Source: Petrimonas sp. IBARAKI
GTDB taxonomy: Bacteria > Bacteroidota > Bacteroidia > Bacteroidales > Dysgonomonadaceae
NCBI GenBank assembly: GCA_002356435.2
Contig: AP018040.2
Coordinates: 2,604,001 to 2,668,000, forward strand
Length of the DNA stretch: 64,000 bases
Direction of reading: 5' to 3'
Made by a program: the position numbers and the translations under genes
Notes under the pieces: model-generated
Seen by the model: the letters and a program-made list of their open reading frames with translations, nothing else
The model's database searches: none
Told to the model about the DNA's origin: nothing
Shown here: piece after piece, positions 15,828-23,393 of the stretch
Numbering within the stretch: the stretch's first letter is position 1
Layout: every line of letters starts with the position of its first letter

Positions 15828-16027
15828 TTTTCCTGTCGCCCATTTGGCTTTACAAAGATTTTTTGCATCTTTGCAAATTATTGTATTTTAACAACAGGGT
15901 CTGTCCCAAAAATAAAAAAATGATTTTCACAATCCATAATATACAGATAATCAGATTATGCTTGTTGGCATTTGAGGTAAAAATCACTTTTTGAGGAGAC
16001 TAAATACAAGATACCCTACTGTAAGTG
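15828..16027. promoter_or_regulatory. aroC-sigma intergenic region with promoter-like element and long inverted repeat
   Basis: TTTG at 15843-15846 is followed after 19 nt by CATCTTTG (15866-15873), close to a Bacteroidota promoter that would give the sigma gene a leader of about 150 nt. The same bases also form a hairpin, CAAAGAT/ATCTTTG (15854-15860 and 15867-15873), so they may instead end the aroC transcript. Further on, A-rich arms at 15915-15927 and 15980-15992 (core TGATTTT/AAAATCA) are complementary and enclose a partly palindromic stretch, CATAAT...ATTATG, at 15935-15960. The region also begins with GGGTCTGTCCCAAAAA, a string reminiscent of insertion-sequence ends. Confidence 0.4.
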
Positions 16028-16615
16028 ATGAACACGGATTTGATGTGGCAAAAATTTATCAAAGAAAGAGACGATCTTTCTTTCTCTCTTGTATACAATA
16101 CCTATGTGGAAGTACTATATGCCTACGGAATTCACTTGGGCTTTCGTGACGAACTATGTAAAGATGCCATCCAGGATGTTTTTTACAACATATATGTAAA
16201 GAAAAGCGAATTAAAAAAAGTTAAAAACCCCACGGCATATCTTTTTAAATCTTACAAATACCGCCTTATCGACCTTGCCCGTAAAGAAGCAAAAATTGAA
16301 ACCATAGACTCGTGCAGCGATTCTTTTACACTAGACATCACCATTTTAGACAATATAATCGATGCGGAAGAATCGATCCTCCTGAAGAACAAGGTTAAAA
16401 AATTGCTGGAATGCCTGTCGGGGCAGCAGCGCGAAGCCGTGTATATGAAATACATGCTTGGCCTGGGTTACGACGAGATAAGCGAAATATTGCAGATTAA
16501 TCCCGATTCCGTAAGAAAATTAATGTACCGCTCCATGGAAAAAATAAGACAAAACATCGATAATGACCACCCCGAATGGCTACCCTTGTTCATAGTCCTG
16601 TTCCTCAGCTTTTAG
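16028..16615 (+). CDS. ECF-type RNA polymerase sigma factor of the SusCD locus
   Basis: The 195-residue protein has sigma region 2 in the first half (CKDAIQDVFYNIY, then PTAYLFKSYKYRLIDLARKE) and region 4 in the second (LSGQQREAVYMKYMLGLGYD, EISEILQINPDSVRKLMYRS). ATG 16028 was chosen over the GTG one codon earlier. The next gene is a FecR anti-sigma factor, then an STN-domain SusC, the standard Bacteroidetes trans-envelope signalling layout. It is predicted to direct transcription of the downstream susCD operon when the glycan is bound outside. A degraded near-copy lies at 26299-26883. Confidence 0.93.
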   Translation: MNTDLMWQKFIKERDDLSFSLVYNTYVEVLYAYGIHLGFRDELCKDAIQDVFYNIYVKKSELKKVKNPTAYLFKSYKYRLIDLARKEAKIETIDSCSDSFTLDITILDNIIDAEESILLKNKVKKLLECLSGQQREAVYMKYMLGLGYDEISEILQINPDSVRKLMYRSMEKIRQNIDNDHPEWLPLFIVLFLSF

Positions 16616-16722
16616 CTATCCCTACAGGTTCCCCTCCCCTAAAAAACATTAATTTTATATTTTTTTCATTTTTTTTGTCCACAAATGAAAAAAATAAACG
16701 TCCTATATATAAAACAATATAT

Positions 16723-17886
16723 GTGAAAAACGATCGGTATTTTCTTTTCAACGAAGATTTTATACAATGGAGACTTTTCCGGACGGAGGAGCAAAACAGA
16801 CAATGGGAGAAGTTCAGGTTAGAGAATCCGCATCTTAAGGAGGACCTGGACGAAGCCATAAGACGGTTCAATGCCCTGGGAATGAATCGCGTCTCTTTGT
16901 CGAAAGATGAAAAAGATGCAATTTACTCTGCCGTTATGCAAAACATCCGTAAACACGAAAAGCGGAAGCACCGACTGCAAGTCTGGTTGACGGCAACTGC
17001 AGCTATCCTCGTCATCACAATCCTGTCCACCTTGTTTGTTCGGTTGAATAAAGACAATGGATCGGCTTTTTTGACCGAGAATAGCAGCATTATAGGAGAG
17101 ACTCTGCCTAAAGAAGAAATATGTCTCTTCTCAGGTGGAGATAAAATCAATATTGCCAACCAATCGGACATCCAGCTGCAAAAGAATGCCAAAGTTCTGA
17201 TTACAAACAATACTGAAGCAAAAAAAGAGTTGGTATTGAATTCCGTGAAAATGAATAAGCTGGTGGTCCCTTTCGGCAAGCAATCAACGCTTATGCTGGC
17301 CGACGGAACGAAAATCTATATAAACTCCGGGACACAGGTCGATTTTCCGTCCGAATTTAATGGAAAAACAAGAGAAATTCATGTTAACGGCGAAGTTTTC
17401 ATTGATGTTGCAGAAGATACAAAAAAACCGTTTATCGTTCATACCGACCGGATGGATATCCGTGTACTCGGCACATCATTCAATGTTTCGGCCTATCGCG
17501 ACGATATGGAAAAAACAGTCGTTCTGGTAAAGGGAAAGGTCTCCGTAAAAACGGAACAACAGGTAACAGAGATGCTTCCCAACGAAAAAGTGGAATTGAC
17601 AAACGGTCAGATAACAAAAGAAACGGTGGATGTCTCTGAATACATCAGTTGGACGAATGGCGTACTGGAATTTTACGAAACCCCTGTTTCGGAAATACTA
17701 AAAAAAGTAGGGAGGTATTACAACGTGCAGTTCGAAAGCAGTCCGGATATTCCGCTCAGTGCCCGGACCTGTTCGGGAAAGCTTTTTCTATCGAATAACC
17801 TGGACAGCGTGATGACCTCGGTCTCCGTTTTGTCGTCAACTAAGTATCACCGCGAAAATAACATTATTTATATTACTAAAAAATAG
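16723..17886 (+). CDS. FecR-family anti-sigma factor
   Basis: GTG 16723 gives a 387-residue protein that starts MKNDRYFLFNEDFIQWRL, the usual beginning of Bacteroidota FecR proteins. The longer frame from 16576 would overlap the sigma gene and adds unrelated residues. Residues 1-80 form the cytoplasmic sigma-binding part, about 86-106 a single membrane span (WLTATAAILVITILSTLFV), then comes a periplasmic FecR domain (LADGTKIYINSGTQVDFPSE, VHVLGTSFNV type) and a C-terminal DUF4974-like domain ending YHRENNIIYITKK, expected to contact the STN domain of SusC. It holds or activates the sigma factor according to transporter state. Confidence 0.92.
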   Translation: MKNDRYFLFNEDFIQWRLFRTEEQNRQWEKFRLENPHLKEDLDEAIRRFNALGMNRVSLSKDEKDAIYSAVMQNIRKHEKRKHRLQVWLTATAAILVITILSTLFVRLNKDNGSAFLTENSSIIGETLPKEEICLFSGGDKINIANQSDIQLQKNAKVLITNNTEAKKELVLNSVKMNKLVVPFGKQSTLMLADGTKIYINSGTQVDFPSEFNGKTREIHVNGEVFIDVAEDTKKPFIVHTDRMDIRVLGTSFNVSAYRDDMEKTVVLVKGKVSVKTEQQVTEMLPNEKVELTNGQITKETVDVSEYISWTNGVLEFYETPVSEILKKVGRYYNVQFESSPDIPLSARTCSGKLFLSNNLDSVMTSVSVLSSTKYHRENNIIYITKK

Positions 17887-17904
17887 ATTGCCTATGAAAA
17901 AATA

Positions 17905-18007
17905 AAAAAAGAAACAAAAAGATCGGGCGACGGTGGCACATCGCCCGATCGGGTGGAAATTTAATTCACAGATAATCCTTAGAAAATAAATTACCTAAAC
18001 TAAAAAT
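17905..18007 (-). ncRNA. Candidate antisense small RNA opposite the susC leader
   Basis: Arms 17921-17930 and 17941-17950 are a perfect 10-bp inverted repeat (GATCGGGCGA/TCGCCCGATC). On the plus strand no T-run follows. Read on the minus strand the hairpin is followed at once by TTTTTGTTTCTTTTTTT (17904-17920), a strong intrinsic terminator. On the same strand a -7 box lies at 18013-18020. The predicted transcript is roughly 90-100 nt, entirely opposite the susC 5' leader. cis-antisense RNAs at this place in polysaccharide loci are known from Bacteroides fragilis (DonS type). Expression here is inferred. Confidence 0.6.
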
Positions 18008-18012
18008 TCATT

Positions 18013-18020
18013 ACAAATGT
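18013..18020 (-). promoter_or_regulatory. Minus-strand -7 box for the candidate antisense RNA
   Basis: The plus strand reads CAAATGTA just before the susC ATG, so the minus strand reads TACATTTG, a full match to TAnnTTTG. No TTTG is seen 19-21 nt further upstream on that strand; only GGTT is present. The -33 part is therefore weak. Confidence 0.45.
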
Positions 18021-21000
18021 ATGGAAAATAAAATAAGATTTAACCAGAGAGCATTTAAAAAGTGCGACAAAACCCTAAAAATCATGAAGATTTCATTTTT
18101 AATGCTTTTTCTCTGCTTTTTTACCATTACCGCAGGTAACGTTTTCTCCCAGCAAAAAGAGCTCTCATTGGAGCTGAATAACGTCACCCTAAAAAAAGCT
18201 ATTTCGGAAATCGAAAAGACAAGCGATTATGTTTTTCTTATTACCGACGAAGCACGGAGAGAATTGAACCGAAAAATATCGGTGCGGGCAAAGAAAGAGA
18301 GTATTCAAACCATCCTGAAAAGTATCTTTAACGATACTAACCTGGATTATACGACTATAGAACGACAGATTTCGGTATATAAAAATCATAAACCCAAAAC
18401 GGAGGAGAGTGAAAAAGTTGCCAAAATTGAGCCTGAACAGCAAAAAAGAACAATTACCGGGATCGTCGTGGATGCAACAGGTGTACCCATTATCGGGGCT
18501 AACATTATTGAAGCCGGAACAACCAACGGAACGGTCACCGATGTGGACGGGAAATTTTCATTAAGCGTGGATAACAATGCCACTATTCGTATTTCTTATA
18601 TTGGATATTTAGAGCAAAACATTGGTACGGCTGGACAAAATTCATTCATTATCACCTTGTTAGAAGATGTGCAGACATTGCAGGAAGTTGTAGCTATCGG
18701 ATACGGGACTCAACGTAAAGAAAATCTCGTTGGAGCTGTATCTGCTGTTTCGGGCGAAGAGATTCAAGCAGTTCATTCTGGTGATGTAACAAACGCTGTC
18801 TCTGGACGTTTACCGGGGGCAATTGTTATGCAACCTTCGGGAGAACCAGGTCGCAATGAAGCAAAAATTTTGGTACGCGGTAGAACAACTCTCGGCGATA
18901 ATACAGGACCACTTGTTGTAATCGATGGAATTCCAGACAGAAGCTTATACGAAATAGATCCAAATGATATTGAAAGTATTTCTCTATTGAAAGATGCCTC
19001 TGCCGCCATTTACGGATCTCAGGCAGCTAATGGTGTAATTCTAGTAACGACCAAAAGCGGCTCAGAAGGTAATTGGATGAGTTACAGGTTTTATCAGGGA
19101 TTTAAAACACCTACGGTTCTGCCTAAAGTTGCCAATGCTGGAGAATATGCTCAATATATCAGCGATTATCAAGATTATGAAGGTCTTGCAAGACTTTATT
19201 CTGATAAAGATGTTGAATTATATAAAAATGGAAAGGATCCCTGGGAACACCCACAAACTGATTGGATGAGTGACCTTGTTAGAAAATGGACGACAGAAAG
19301 CAACCATCATCTATCCTTAAGCGGTTCACACAATAAAATGAGATATTACGCATCTCTCGGCTTCAGAAACGACCAAGCAATGTACGCCCAAGAATCTACA
19401 AATTACAAGCAATATAACTTAAGATTAAAGTTGGATATTCCTGTAACTGATTGGCTGGAAACGTCGGTTTATTATGGAGGGTTCATGACCACAAGAAAAT
19501 ATCCCACTACCTCAACTTATCAATTAGTGGGTTGGGCAACAATGGCATTACCCACACAACCTTCTTTTTGGCCGACCGGGGAACCGGGCCCTGACTTTGA
19601 AGGAGGAGTCAACCCAGTGGTAAATACAAGTTTCGATGCGGGCTATGATCAGCAAGATAATTATAAAAACGAGGTAACATTCAGAGGAACCTTTAAGCCG
19701 AAAAAAATAAAAGGTTTTACTCTTAACGGATTTTACACTTTTGATGTGAACAATCAAAATAGAAAACTCTTCAGGAAACCCTGGACTTTATATTACCCAG
19801 ATTGGGATTCCGCGGTGCGCAATTCTGAGGGGTATATTACCAGTATGGAGTTAACACCGAGAAAAAGAGGATTGGAGAATCCGGAACTTACCGAAGCAAA
19901 TTTTAGGTATTTGAAAAAAATGTACAACATAAACGCAACCTATGAGAAAGACCTAGGCGATCATGCTTTTTCTATTTTTGGCGCTTTCGAAGAATTAAAA
20001 GAAAATATATACGGATTTGATGCGTACAGAAAATACTTTATTTCCGATCTTGTTCAAACTCTTGATGCGGGGGGAGAAAAAGACAAAACAAACTCCGGGC
20101 AGATGAGTATTTATGCAAGACAATCGTGGATTGGAAGACTAAATTATAATTTCAGAGAAAAATATCTTCTCGAGTTTATCTTACGCCGAGACGGCTCCTT
20201 GAAATTTCCACCAAACAGCAGATGGGGAAATTTTCCCGCAGTTTTGTTTGCTTGGCGTGCTTCTGAAGAAGATTTTTGGAAAAACAACCTTTCTGTAATT
20301 GACTATTTTAAACTAAGAACATCATACGGACAAATGGGTATGGACCCGGGAGACCCTTTTCAATATATCAATAAATACAGTCTGGGAACTGGAATGACAT
20401 TCGGTAGTAATAAAGATGTAGTAACAAAGATATATCAATCTGTTATTGCCAATCCGAAAATAACATGGGAAAAACAAACGACATTCAATTTCGGCTTCGA
20501 TTCTCAATTCTTGAATCAAATGTTCCACCTCAATACCGAGTTTTTCTATAACAAACGTTCTGATATTTTAGCTGCGCGCGACGCATCTGTTCCTGCATAT
20601 ACAGGTCTAGCCTTACCGTTGGAGAATATTGCAATTGTTGATAACAGAGGATTTGAAATTGATGCCGGATTCCATAAAAAGATTACGTCTGATTTAAGTT
20701 TGGACTTAACTGGAAACGTAAGCTGGAACAAGAATAAAATTGTTTTTATGGATGAACCTGAAAGAGCTGTCCCCTGGCAACGATTAACAGGACATCCATA
20801 CGGAGCACAACTGGTTTACAAAGCCATTGGCATATTTAAAACACAAGCCGAAATAGATGCTTATCCACATTGGAGTGGGGCAAAACCGGGAGATGTTATT
20901 TTTGAGGACGTAAGTAAAGACGGAAAAATAAATGCAGATGACAGGATTCTTTTGGACAAAACCGATGCTCCACAAGTTTTTTATGGAATGATCTTGGACC

Positions 21001-21440
21001 TAACTTATAAAAATTGGGCGCTTTCTTTACAAGGACAAGGACAAGGTACATATTATAAAAGTCCAATTGAAGGCAACAGAGGAATCGGACAAAACGTTTA
21101 CAAATGGATGGCAACAGATTATTGGACTCCGGAAAACAGTAATTCCAATAAGGCTCGTCCGTTCCATAGAGCCGACCAATACTGGTCTTATATCAGCAAT
21201 GCAAATACATACTGGTATGACAATATGGCTTATTTCCGCTTGAAAAATGTAGTTGTAAGTTATAATTTACCAAAAGAATTAACAAGTAAAGCCGGATTGG
21301 CAAATGTGAACATTTTCGCCTCGGGTTACAATTTATTTTTGATTTACTCCAAGCAAAGAAATTACGATCCGGAAGTTGGGAATCCCCAATATTATCCGGC
21401 AATGAGAACAGTATCACTGGGAGTAAAGGTTAATTTTTAA
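18021..21440 (+). CDS. SusC/RagA-family TonB-linked outer-membrane transporter with STN domain
   Basis: The 1139-residue protein has a long signal peptide ending near NVFSQQ and an STN signalling domain at about 45-115 (LSLELNNVTLKKAISEIEKT). A carboxypeptidase-regulatory-like domain follows at about 143-215 (RTITGIVVDATGVPIIGANI), then the plug at about 222-345 (VVAIGYGTQRKENLVGAV, DASAAIYGSQAANGVILVTT) and a barrel ending MRTVSLGVKVNF. It imports oligosaccharide with TonB energy, and the STN domain should report to FecR. From about 18600 onward the coding sequence becomes visibly richer in A+T than its first 570 nt. SusD follows 30 nt downstream. Confidence 0.95.
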   Translation: MENKIRFNQRAFKKCDKTLKIMKISFLMLFLCFFTITAGNVFSQQKELSLELNNVTLKKAISEIEKTSDYVFLITDEARRELNRKISVRAKKESIQTILKSIFNDTNLDYTTIERQISVYKNHKPKTEESEKVAKIEPEQQKRTITGIVVDATGVPIIGANIIEAGTTNGTVTDVDGKFSLSVDNNATIRISYIGYLEQNIGTAGQNSFIITLLEDVQTLQEVVAIGYGTQRKENLVGAVSAVSGEEIQAVHSGDVTNAVSGRLPGAIVMQPSGEPGRNEAKILVRGRTTLGDNTGPLVVIDGIPDRSLYEIDPNDIESISLLKDASAAIYGSQAANGVILVTTKSGSEGNWMSYRFYQGFKTPTVLPKVANAGEYAQYISDYQDYEGLARLYSDKDVELYKNGKDPWEHPQTDWMSDLVRKWTTESNHHLSLSGSHNKMRYYASLGFRNDQAMYAQESTNYKQYNLRLKLDIPVTDWLETSVYYGGFMTTRKYPTTSTYQLVGWATMALPTQPSFWPTGEPGPDFEGGVNPVVNTSFDAGYDQQDNYKNEVTFRGTFKPKKIKGFTLNGFYTFDVNNQNRKLFRKPWTLYYPDWDSAVRNSEGYITSMELTPRKRGLENPELTEANFRYLKKMYNINATYEKDLGDHAFSIFGAFEELKENIYGFDAYRKYFISDLVQTLDAGGEKDKTNSGQMSIYARQSWIGRLNYNFREKYLLEFILRRDGSLKFPPNSRWGNFPAVLFAWRASEEDFWKNNLSVIDYFKLRTSYGQMGMDPGDPFQYINKYSLGTGMTFGSNKDVVTKIYQSVIANPKITWEKQTTFNFGFDSQFLNQMFHLNTEFFYNKRSDILAARDASVPAYTGLALPLENIAIVDNRGFEIDAGFHKKITSDLSLDLTGNVSWNKNKIVFMDEPERAVPWQRLTGHPYGAQLVYKAIGIFKTQAEIDAYPHWSGAKPGDVIFEDVSKDGKINADDRILLDKTDAPQVFYGMILDLTYKNWALSLQGQGQGTYYKSPIEGNRGIGQNVYKWMATDYWTPENSNSNKARPFHRADQYWSYISNANTYWYDNMAYFRLKNVVVSYNLPKELTSKAGLANVNIFASGYNLFLIYSKQRNYDPEVGNPQYYPAMRTVSLGVKVNF

Positions 21441-21470: not shown

Positions 21471-23393
21471 ATGAAAAAATATAAAAACATTCAATACTGT
21501 TTAATTGCATTTCTACTCTCCTTCATTCTTTCCTCTTGTGAGAACGCATTGGATCAAAAGCCTGTAGATTCATTCAATGAAGAGTCGCTCTTTCGGGATA
21601 TAAATCTTGCGGAAGCATTTCTATACCAATGTTACGATGTGATGGGCGGAGACAGGGAAGAAGTTTTAGGGATGCGTGAAGATTTATTGTCATCTTCAAC
21701 GGATGAACTTCTGAATATTCATAGAGCTGGACAAGTCACTTTTACAAAAGGGAACCTTACTCCCGATTATTTAGGCCACTTTGGTAATTGGCGATATGGA
21801 TGGATACTGTGGGACTTTAATTACTCTAATATTAAAAACGTTAACACTCTTTTGGGAGGTATCGACGAAGTTCCTACACAATCAAAAGCCGATGAGGATA
21901 AAATTGAACAGATTAAAGCGGAAGCTTATTTTATAAGAGCTTTTAATTATACAAACCTCCTTCGTTCATACGGAGGAGTAGTGCTTATCGATAAAAAGTT
22001 TAATTTAGACGATGATTTTTTATCCCAGGAAAGAGCTTCATTGGAAGAAACGTTGAATTTTATTTTAGTCGACTTAGACAAAGCGATTGCCGGATTACCT
22101 GATAAAAACGAGATAGCTCAGGGCAGAGCCACCAAAGGTGCGGCTGCTGCACTAAAATCAAGACTTTTAAGTTTTGTTTCAGGAGAATTGATGAATGGCG
22201 GATATGAATCTTCGAACGATTTAGTTTCCTTTCAAGACAATAACAGAAGACAACGACTTACGGATGCGAAAAATGCGGCCAAAGATATTATTGACGGAAA
22301 ATTTGGACATTATGCCCTTTCAGGTGCCACCCATGAGCCCCCTTTAAATATGACGAATGAAGAACTGATGGCTTACGCTGAAAATTATAGCAATATTTTT
22401 CTACAAAAAGGAGCTTGGAATGACGAGGTTATTTTTGGAATACAATACCTTAACAGGCAGGGAAACAGAGCCGTCAACAACCTGTATTGGGGACCAAACG
22501 GATACAATTGTTGGGGGAATAACGAACCCACAGAACATATTGTTAGACAATTTGAAATGGAAGATGGAACTTCGTTCAAATGGGATAAGTACAATCCGGG
22601 ACAAATAAACATTCGGGAATTTACAAAAACGCAATTGGATGCAAATCCGGAACTAAACCCTTATGTTGGCAGAGAACCTCGTTTCTATGCAAATATTCTT
22701 TTCGATGGAGCTCCTTGGCGCGATAGATCATCAACAAATAACAAGATTCAAATAGCCTCACAAGTAGATGCTCCCGGAGCAAGTATTATGGGTGCGAAAA
22801 GCGTGGCCGAAAAAATGCAAGCCATAGCAACGCTTGAACCTGTCATTACGGGAGGAAACGACTCCAGACAAGCCGCTAACCAAGCATGGAACGGAACAAA
22901 AACAGGTTATTACCTAAGAAAAATGCTGGACATTAGTATTGATGGAGAGATAGATAATAATGAAAATACTTGGCTCGAAATGCGTTTTGCAGAAGTATTG
23001 TTGGATTATGCCGAAGCCTGTATCGAATTGGGAGAAATAGAAGAAGGCATTACAACCATCAACAAAATCAGAAACCGTGCCGGGCTACCAGGACGTTCAA
23101 TTACCGTTAGTCAAGAGCAGGCAAGAGAATGGTATAGACACGAAAGATTAATTGAAATGTTCGCCGAAGGAGATAGATGGTACAGTATACGAAAATGGAT
23201 GATTTGCGATAAAGTAATTGCAGATTTCCATCCAATGTATATTTACCACTTTAATGACGGAGTATCAATGTACATATATAATACAACAGCTCTGGCAGAT
23301 ACAAGAAAATGGGATAATAAGAATTATTGGCTGCCTATTTCAAGGACAGAAATAAACAAGGCTCCCCAGTTAAAACAAAATCCGGGTTACTAA
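21471..23393 (+). CDS. SusD/RagB-family glycan-binding lipoprotein
   Basis: The 640-residue surface lipoprotein has lipobox ILSSC with Cys23. Typical SusD features are the early LDQKPVDSFNEESLF, the TPR-like IKAEAYFIRAFNYTNLLRSY with GGVVLIDK, and the late RFAEVLLDYAEACIELGE, INKIRNRAGLPG and RHERLIEMFAEGDRWYSIRKW. It caps the SusC barrel and captures the glycan. The coding sequence shares the A+T-rich character of the susC barrel. The next gene starts 17 nt after its stop and is clearly richer in G+C. Confidence 0.96.
   Translation: MKKYKNIQYCLIAFLLSFILSSCENALDQKPVDSFNEESLFRDINLAEAFLYQCYDVMGGDREEVLGMREDLLSSSTDELLNIHRAGQVTFTKGNLTPDYLGHFGNWRYGWILWDFNYSNIKNVNTLLGGIDEVPTQSKADEDKIEQIKAEAYFIRAFNYTNLLRSYGGVVLIDKKFNLDDDFLSQERASLEETLNFILVDLDKAIAGLPDKNEIAQGRATKGAAAALKSRLLSFVSGELMNGGYESSNDLVSFQDNNRRQRLTDAKNAAKDIIDGKFGHYALSGATHEPPLNMTNEELMAYAENYSNIFLQKGAWNDEVIFGIQYLNRQGNRAVNNLYWGPNGYNCWGNNEPTEHIVRQFEMEDGTSFKWDKYNPGQINIREFTKTQLDANPELNPYVGREPRFYANILFDGAPWRDRSSTNNKIQIASQVDAPGASIMGAKSVAEKMQAIATLEPVITGGNDSRQAANQAWNGTKTGYYLRKMLDISIDGEIDNNENTWLEMRFAEVLLDYAEACIELGEIEEGITTINKIRNRAGLPGRSITVSQEQAREWYRHERLIEMFAEGDRWYSIRKWMICDKVIADFHPMYIYHFNDGVSMYIYNTTALADTRKWDNKNYWLPISRTEINKAPQLKQNPGY

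Follow-up and report, generated by a model that had tools for sequence, protein, structure and literature searches.

The question raised by this locus was whether the spacer between a fecR-type and a susC-type gene holds a gene of its own on the opposite strand and, if so, what that gene would do. The sequence analysed (the window) was a stretch of 64 kb from Petrimonas sp. IBARAKI, whose whole genome has 3,693,233 bases. The genes around the spacer were assigned by Pfam as follows:

16025..16615, plus strand: ECF-type sigma factor gene (PF08281 Sigma70_r4_2, 6e-13)
16576..17886, plus strand (listed ORF): fecR-type anti-sigma gene (PF04773 FecR and PF16344 FecR_C)
18021..21440, plus strand: susC-type TonB-dependent transporter gene, the proposed cis target (Plug, CarbopepD_reg_2, STN)
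21471..23393, plus strand: susD gene, in the same PUL as susC (SusD_RagB)

The sigma factor gene product also matched PF07638 Sigma70_ECF, barely above the cut-off, and the real start of fecR probably lies downstream of the listed ORF start at 16576. Beyond susD, Pfam matches gave a GFO/IDH/MocA oxidoreductase and then a xylose-isomerase-like protein. The explanation favoured as a whole, which we consider highly likely, is that the spacer contains a gene for a structured antisense RNA that represses susC from a promoter placed on the susC start codon. The following elements were assigned to this RNA:

17921..17950, minus strand: antisense terminator hairpin, a perfect 10-bp inverted repeat (covarying helix 4, 97.1% of cells paired)
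17904..17920, minus strand: U-tract of the antisense terminator (from the sequence and from minus-side T-richness in 69/74 loci)
18014..18021, minus strand: TAnnTTTG -7 box of the putative antisense promoter (TACATTTG), sharing the A of the susC ATG (18021)
17954..18010, minus strand: 5' hairpin of the antisense RNA, consensus arms 18010-17995 and 17969-17954 (RNAalifold, alignment A1)
17911..18009, minus strand: predicted antisense RNA of about 95-100 nt (from the box, an invariant TGA and the terminator)

The original prediction was of a perfect 10-bp hairpin that resembles a terminator on the minus strand alone, and this was confirmed in the window: the inverted repeat at 17921-17950, GATCGGGCGA-N10-TCGCCCGATC, is followed 3' by a U-tract on the minus strand (TTTTTGTTTCTTTTTTT, 17920-17904) and by none on the plus strand (GGGTGGAAATTTAATT). 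With wobble included, the stem has 12 pairs on the minus strand. A search of both strands of the 64 kb for stems of 10 bp or longer (7 or more G-C pairs, loop length 3-12, 6 or more T among the 10 bases behind) returned this stem alone, and none turned up in four Markov shuffles of the window, each run on one strand. The minus-strand TAnnTTTG box predicted for the start codon of susC was found there as TACATTTG at 18021-18014, overlapping the ATG. CAAAnnT before the first ATG occurred at susC alone among the 38 non-overlapping window ORFs of at least 150 aa; a T at -1 is uninformative by itself, since 19/38 window ORFs have one. Genome-wide, CAAANNTATG was not enriched (180 versus 203 in the reversed control). 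Among the traits of sigma-ABfr promoters, the TAnnTTTG -7 box is present and the -33 TTTG is absent, no TTTG near -33 being seen in the logo of the aligned family loci.

The likely first base of the RNA is at the invariant TGA 5-6 nt past the box (alignment of 19), with a predicted start at about 18009/18008 and a predicted end at about 17916-17910. An earlier estimate of a transcript of about 90-100 nt covering the susC leader held for the length, predicted here as about 95-100 nt, but its coverage of the leader would reach no nearer than about 12 nt from the ATG. Folding of the predicted transcript gave z = -4.7 against 200 shuffles.

Relatives were collected by a DNA search with 260 bases round the site against 101 genomes, of which 31 matched. 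From the 44 places listed, one being the window, 19 were taken for comparison, namely the best 18 of the 43 non-own places listed and the weaker L082, which is of another subtype and was left out of the 18 homologous spacers. Since the 18 were picked by similarity to the window spacer, selection explains part of their likeness; this choice has no bearing on the model tests described below. The minus-strand TAnnTTTG box at the susC start, whose conservation in aligned spacers had been proposed as a check, was present in 18/18 homologous fecR-susC spacers (at -7 from the first ATG in 17/18, and at -3 in L066, where the first ATG comes 4 bases earlier). Alignment A1 (19 sequences, the window and the 18) was made blind to structure. 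RNAalifold placed 25 pairs on A1; they form two hairpins, one being the terminator and the other, at the 5' end, being made of two conserved blocks. This 5' hairpin, found by alignment and RNAalifold, was an additional feature absent from the original prediction. A sense ECF promoter made of the two conserved blocks, TTAATTTAC and GTAAACTAA, was considered and rejected on the variable spacing of the blocks and on their pairing with each other.

A covariance model (R1) was built from the 19 sequences and used to search the 101 genomes at E up to 0.001, which returned 74 matches from 41 genomes, including the 19 training sequences; counts of model matches here and below represent related genomes, not independent events. 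The two strands of these loci were then compared. The consensus fold of the 19 sequences had an energy of -23.6 kcal/mol on the minus strand versus -6.5 kcal/mol on the plus strand, the consensus folds of both strands beating 200/200 column shuffles, and the minus-strand fold was the lower in 74/74 loci. At least 6 T of 10 behind the hairpin were present on the minus side in 69/74 loci and on the plus side in 2/74, and the refuting outcome set for the proposal, loss in relatives of the hairpin with its minus-side U-tract, was thus not observed. Over 25 pairs and 19 sequences, 387 cells were Watson-Crick, 64 G-U, 3 A-C and 21 other, and in the 55 sequences outside the first model G-U outnumbered A-C by 206 to 9. 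Minus-strand G-U cells are A-C mismatches if read on the plus strand, and by the excess of G-U over A-C on the minus strand, the minus-strand RNA is therefore the one under selection. In alignment A3, which was fitted to the model, compensatory changes were found in 25/25 pairs and 95.2% of cells were paired, with a covariation of 0.644 versus 0.266 when shuffled and at most 0.171 when slid. By eye, a U(U/G)GCAGCA-like sequence in the terminator loop was retained in many loci despite a freely varying stem. The loop sequence is possibly a kissing or protein-binding site.

The surroundings of the model matches tied the RNA to the same genes. At the R1 sites outside the training set, a susC-like gene lay on the opposite strand in 55/55, its start codon at the exact predicted base in 51/55 (the model contains just its A), and a fecR-like gene upstream in 52/55. 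A second model (R2) was built from the 74 sequences and matched 6/6 named Bacteroides genomes (six among those listed) at 18 sites with E up to 0.01; 17/18 were at an ATG, 16/18 with a susC-like gene and 16/18 with a fecR-like gene. B. fragilis Q1F2 had 6 R2 matches (E up to 0.01), 6/6 on susC-like genes behind fecR-like genes. In 295 genomes drawn from the order of the window, 38 had R2 matches, and the 77 matches listed comprised 4 own, 7 training, 60 examined and 6 outside examination. The 60 non-training matches included 56 at an ATG, 54 with a susC-like gene and 53 with a fecR-like gene. Six of the 60 had no susC-like ORF by the automatic test: L360 is susC-like yet frame-broken, L364 and L367 are stand-alone RNAs, L378 has a fecR-like frame where the susC-like ORF was expected, L382 is probably a false match, and at L391 the contig ends after 52 codons. 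Of 295 genomes of the class, 9 had R2 matches; outside the order of the window there were 7 sites in 5 genomes, 7/7 with susC-like and fecR-like genes and 6/7 at an ATG. As all scans of more than 40 genomes were run under strict filters, these prevalences are lower bounds. Rfam 15 gave nothing at gathering score, one search returning four weak, implausible matches.

Within the genome of the window, FecR_C matched 23 times, with 15 matches falling in frames of FecR size (L031-L045), and the box was found at the susC-side ATG in 6/15 (L036, L037 at an inner ATG, L038, L040, L042 and L043). The antisense element is therefore carried by a subset and is not a general trait of FecR loci; the model found 5 of the 15. 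The gene, its strand, structure and promoter position and its tie to fecR and susC are established at the level of sequence comparison. Because many Bacteroidota share its shape, its promoter and its location, the structured minus-strand RNA is very probably a real regulator.

Expression of the RNA, repression of susC and pairing as the mode of action are what we infer, and repression of susC is proposed as the likeliest function by analogy with the systems discussed below. RNA polymerase with a housekeeping sigma factor of the sigma-ABfr type would start at the TAnnTTTG box over the susC start codon and read the minus strand backwards across the leader of susC, and the intrinsic terminator before the fecR stop codon would end the RNA. 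The product, of about 95-100 nt, would fold into the 5' hairpin and the terminator hairpin and span most of the susC leader, excluding the start codon. As long as FecR retains the sigma factor, the antisense RNA would base-pair with the few susC leaders made, or its transcription would oppose them; either way the susC mRNA would be translated less or be less stable. Once substrate releases the sigma factor, the antisense RNA would be outnumbered by sense transcripts. Counted against this explanation were the absent -33 TTTG and the presence of the box in just 6/15 loci of the genome.

DonS and the PUL cis-antisense RNAs of Bacteroides were reportedly described by Cao et al. 2016. Later papers describe antisense RNAs of PULs that measure 78-128 nt and affect susC homologs negatively (PMC7366714), 32 PUL-associated antisense RNAs in B. 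thetaiotaomicron with negative and positive correlations (PMC10994844), and repression by DonS of its PUL in B. fragilis, the mechanism being stated as unknown (PMC11697453). Antisense RNAs in the present arrangement have been detected in B. thetaiotaomicron, and repression of a susC homolog by such an RNA in B. fragilis (DonS), to which the original prediction had pointed, agrees with the same papers (PMC7366714, PMC10994844, PMC11697453). PMC10994844 calls for functional study of the class, and the positive correlation of some antisense-PUL pairs in it was likewise counted against the favoured explanation. The idea that the RNA may be a 'second brake' on susC comes from these Bacteroides papers.

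By place, predicted length and promoter, the predicted RNA of the window is a PUL antisense RNA of the DonS type: both are divergent to a susC homolog and overlap its 5' region in a PUL, and the 95-100 nt predicted from box to terminator would fit the 78-128 nt described. DonS is from B. fragilis, whereas the window RNA is from another genus and another PUL. The two-hairpin fold and the start-codon promoter were found here and are unmentioned for DonS in the excerpts of PMC7366714, PMC10994844 and PMC11697453, and susC-free copies, which exist in the present family, were listed as a further difference from DonS. When the don locus was sought through a GH18 gene beside an RNA match, a single weak GH18 match turned up at 960963, with the nearest RNA match about 110 kb away. 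FopS of B. thetaiotaomicron, as described in part of PMC11697453, is likewise short, sigma-ABfr-driven, with a terminator hairpin and action near susC start codons; its members regulate in trans and have a single-stranded 5' stretch bearing the R1 seed, and a terminator. The 5' part of the window RNA is instead a covarying hairpin, and the RNA is antisense to susC and lacks the single-stranded 5' stretch, which sets it apart from FopS as described. GibS shares with it the character of a conserved Bacteroides sRNA with metabolic targets, but is intergenic, has promoter motif 2 and seeds R1 and R2 (PMC7366714 and PMC11697453, in part); it was compared by description and by Rfam searches.

The class was known already, and the window RNA is an added member; the results suggest that the class, or much of it, is one structured family. 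A full-text search, with Cao et al. 2016 outside it, returned no paper describing the shared two-hairpin structure, which may be in print. A comparative study of Bacteroides RNA structures from 2022 is said to exist and may already cover it. The shared structure, the constant place of the promoter, the predicted ends and a model usable for searches make scattered transcripts look like one RNA family, of which the 5' hairpin, the terminator loop and the start-codon promoter are testable parts. The arrangement is also carried beyond gut Bacteroides, into the genus of the window and, in other orders of the class, into five genomes.

Copies without the PUL genes were found in four genomes:

L335:5049-5143, L336:5240-5334, L364:1464-1562 and L367:1481-1576: stand-alone RNA copies near buk, with no sigma factor gene, fecR or susC start adjoining

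The full order of pnp, sigma, fecR, antisense RNA, susC and susD is present in B. fragilis, B. salyersiae and B. timonensis, and B. cellulosilyticus has the same gene order, with pnp matched over its last 240 residues only. In B. finegoldii and B. faecichinchillae the order is pnp, then the RNA, then buk. Within the 11 kb examined, no sigma or fecR match was found near the RNA of these two species, and the sole susC-like match was remote (30% over 247 aa) and about 5 kb off, in B. finegoldii. Over 3 kb examined in each of two further genomes, the RNA lay between pnp and buk (G229) and between buk and another ORF (G124), which from its sequence looks like the end of a TonB-dependent receptor. 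Identity to the B. fragilis copy was 92/95 in B. finegoldii, 91/95 in B. faecichinchillae, 92/96 in G229 and 86/99 in G124. Between B. finegoldii and B. faecichinchillae, 87/92 bases were identical over RNA and box, 64/101 towards pnp and 134/308 in the remaining spacer.

A cis-antisense RNA without its target should decay; the retention of the stand-alone member in some gut bacteria suggests a trans role for that member, and hints that such RNAs may act on distant targets as well. The stand-alone copies were also counted against the favoured explanation, as they show that at least one member does more than act as a cis-antisense RNA, and they are a natural means to separate cis from trans action. 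The RNA could be made and act chiefly in trans on other mRNAs, with the susC overlap mostly its birthplace. This is possible, although we hold it with some doubt, and it is compatible with the favoured explanation. In its favour, near-unchanged copies persist in four genomes with none of sigma, fecR and a susC start adjoining, and at complete loci the RNA is far better kept than the neighbouring proteins: the B. finegoldii RNA shared 93-97% of bases with five other named Bacteroides genomes, whereas in the complete loci SusC was 60-67% and SusD 49-52% identical in amino acids to B. fragilis. On the other side, 125/133 non-training matches (R1 in 101 genomes, the six Bacteroides genomes and the order scan) were on a susC-like gene, and a 95-base query matched once in each of the six Bacteroides genomes.

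Antisense transcription itself, through collision in the leader, could also lower susC, the RNA being a by-product. The promoter on the start codon and a terminator that halts polymerase at or before the end of fecR would fit such interference, but a by-product would need neither a covarying 5' hairpin nor strand-specific wobble and would not be retained without susC, and we regard this as unlikely. A plus-strand role of the inverted repeats, either as a terminator of fecR or as a fold of the susC leader, is highly improbable and was rejected on the side of the U-tract, the direction of wobble and the energies, for although the same DNA folds on both strands and the weak plus-strand consensus beats all column shuffles, the plus side has no T-run, the wobble pairs become A-C mismatches there and the fold is weaker in every locus.

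The sense leader contains one further conserved element, just before the antisense terminator hairpin:

17889..17905, plus strand: TGCCTATG element with a micro-ORF (ATG AAA AAA TAA, 17894-17905), assigned by conservation of CCTATG

CCTATG was present between the fecR stop and the hairpin in 49/74 loci (shuffled mean 0.31, highest 2), at 0-224 bases from the fecR stop, and within 90 bases upstream of the hairpin in 58/74 loci; 49 of 57 distinct cases lay 28-41 bases before the hairpin. An in-frame stop followed within 6 codons in 51/57 (shuffled 22.1, sd 3.6, highest 35), compared with 79/158 other ATGs in the same stretch, and stops at offsets 3-20 were distributed by frame as 64/14/29. The ATG was in frame with a long upstream ORF, mostly fecR, in 10/57. 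As read from the sequences, the genome of the window has CCTATG in 6/6 spacers with the box and in 0/9 others. The in-frame stop bias would argue for translation of the micro-ORF, though half of the other ATGs in the stretch meet such a stop too. A reading of TGCCTATG as a two-part promoter was disfavoured, as no second element was found at fixed spacing except an A-run, and as the stop bias would speak against it. TGCCTATGRA was not enriched genome-wide (18 versus 23 in the control).

Taken with the stand-alone copies, these data allow a joint reading in three parts. It is conceivable, and put forward tentatively, that a single structured PUL antisense family in Bacteroidia, with its promoter overlapping the start codon of susC, includes a trans-acting stand-alone sRNA and, with the micro-ORF, makes up a composite switch. 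The buk-side RNA of the B. finegoldii group might, with equal caution, have retained its sequence through the loss of the sigma-fecR-susC-susD operon, or have preceded the gain of that operon. Also as a provisional suggestion, the element could be more than a plain antisense RNA and work as a composite RNA switch, with a conserved TGCCTATG...stop micro-ORF of 1-5 codons.

TGCCTATGRA was also seen before two susC-like genes of the genome of the window (L322 and L329), at which neither fecR nor an antisense RNA of the present kind was seen (L329 by eye). In five loci (L072, L073, L079, L080 and L081) the FecR frame enters the TGCCTATG element and ends in Met-Pro-Met-Lys, and in other loci FecR stops before the element, across which the stop codon of fecR has apparently shifted.
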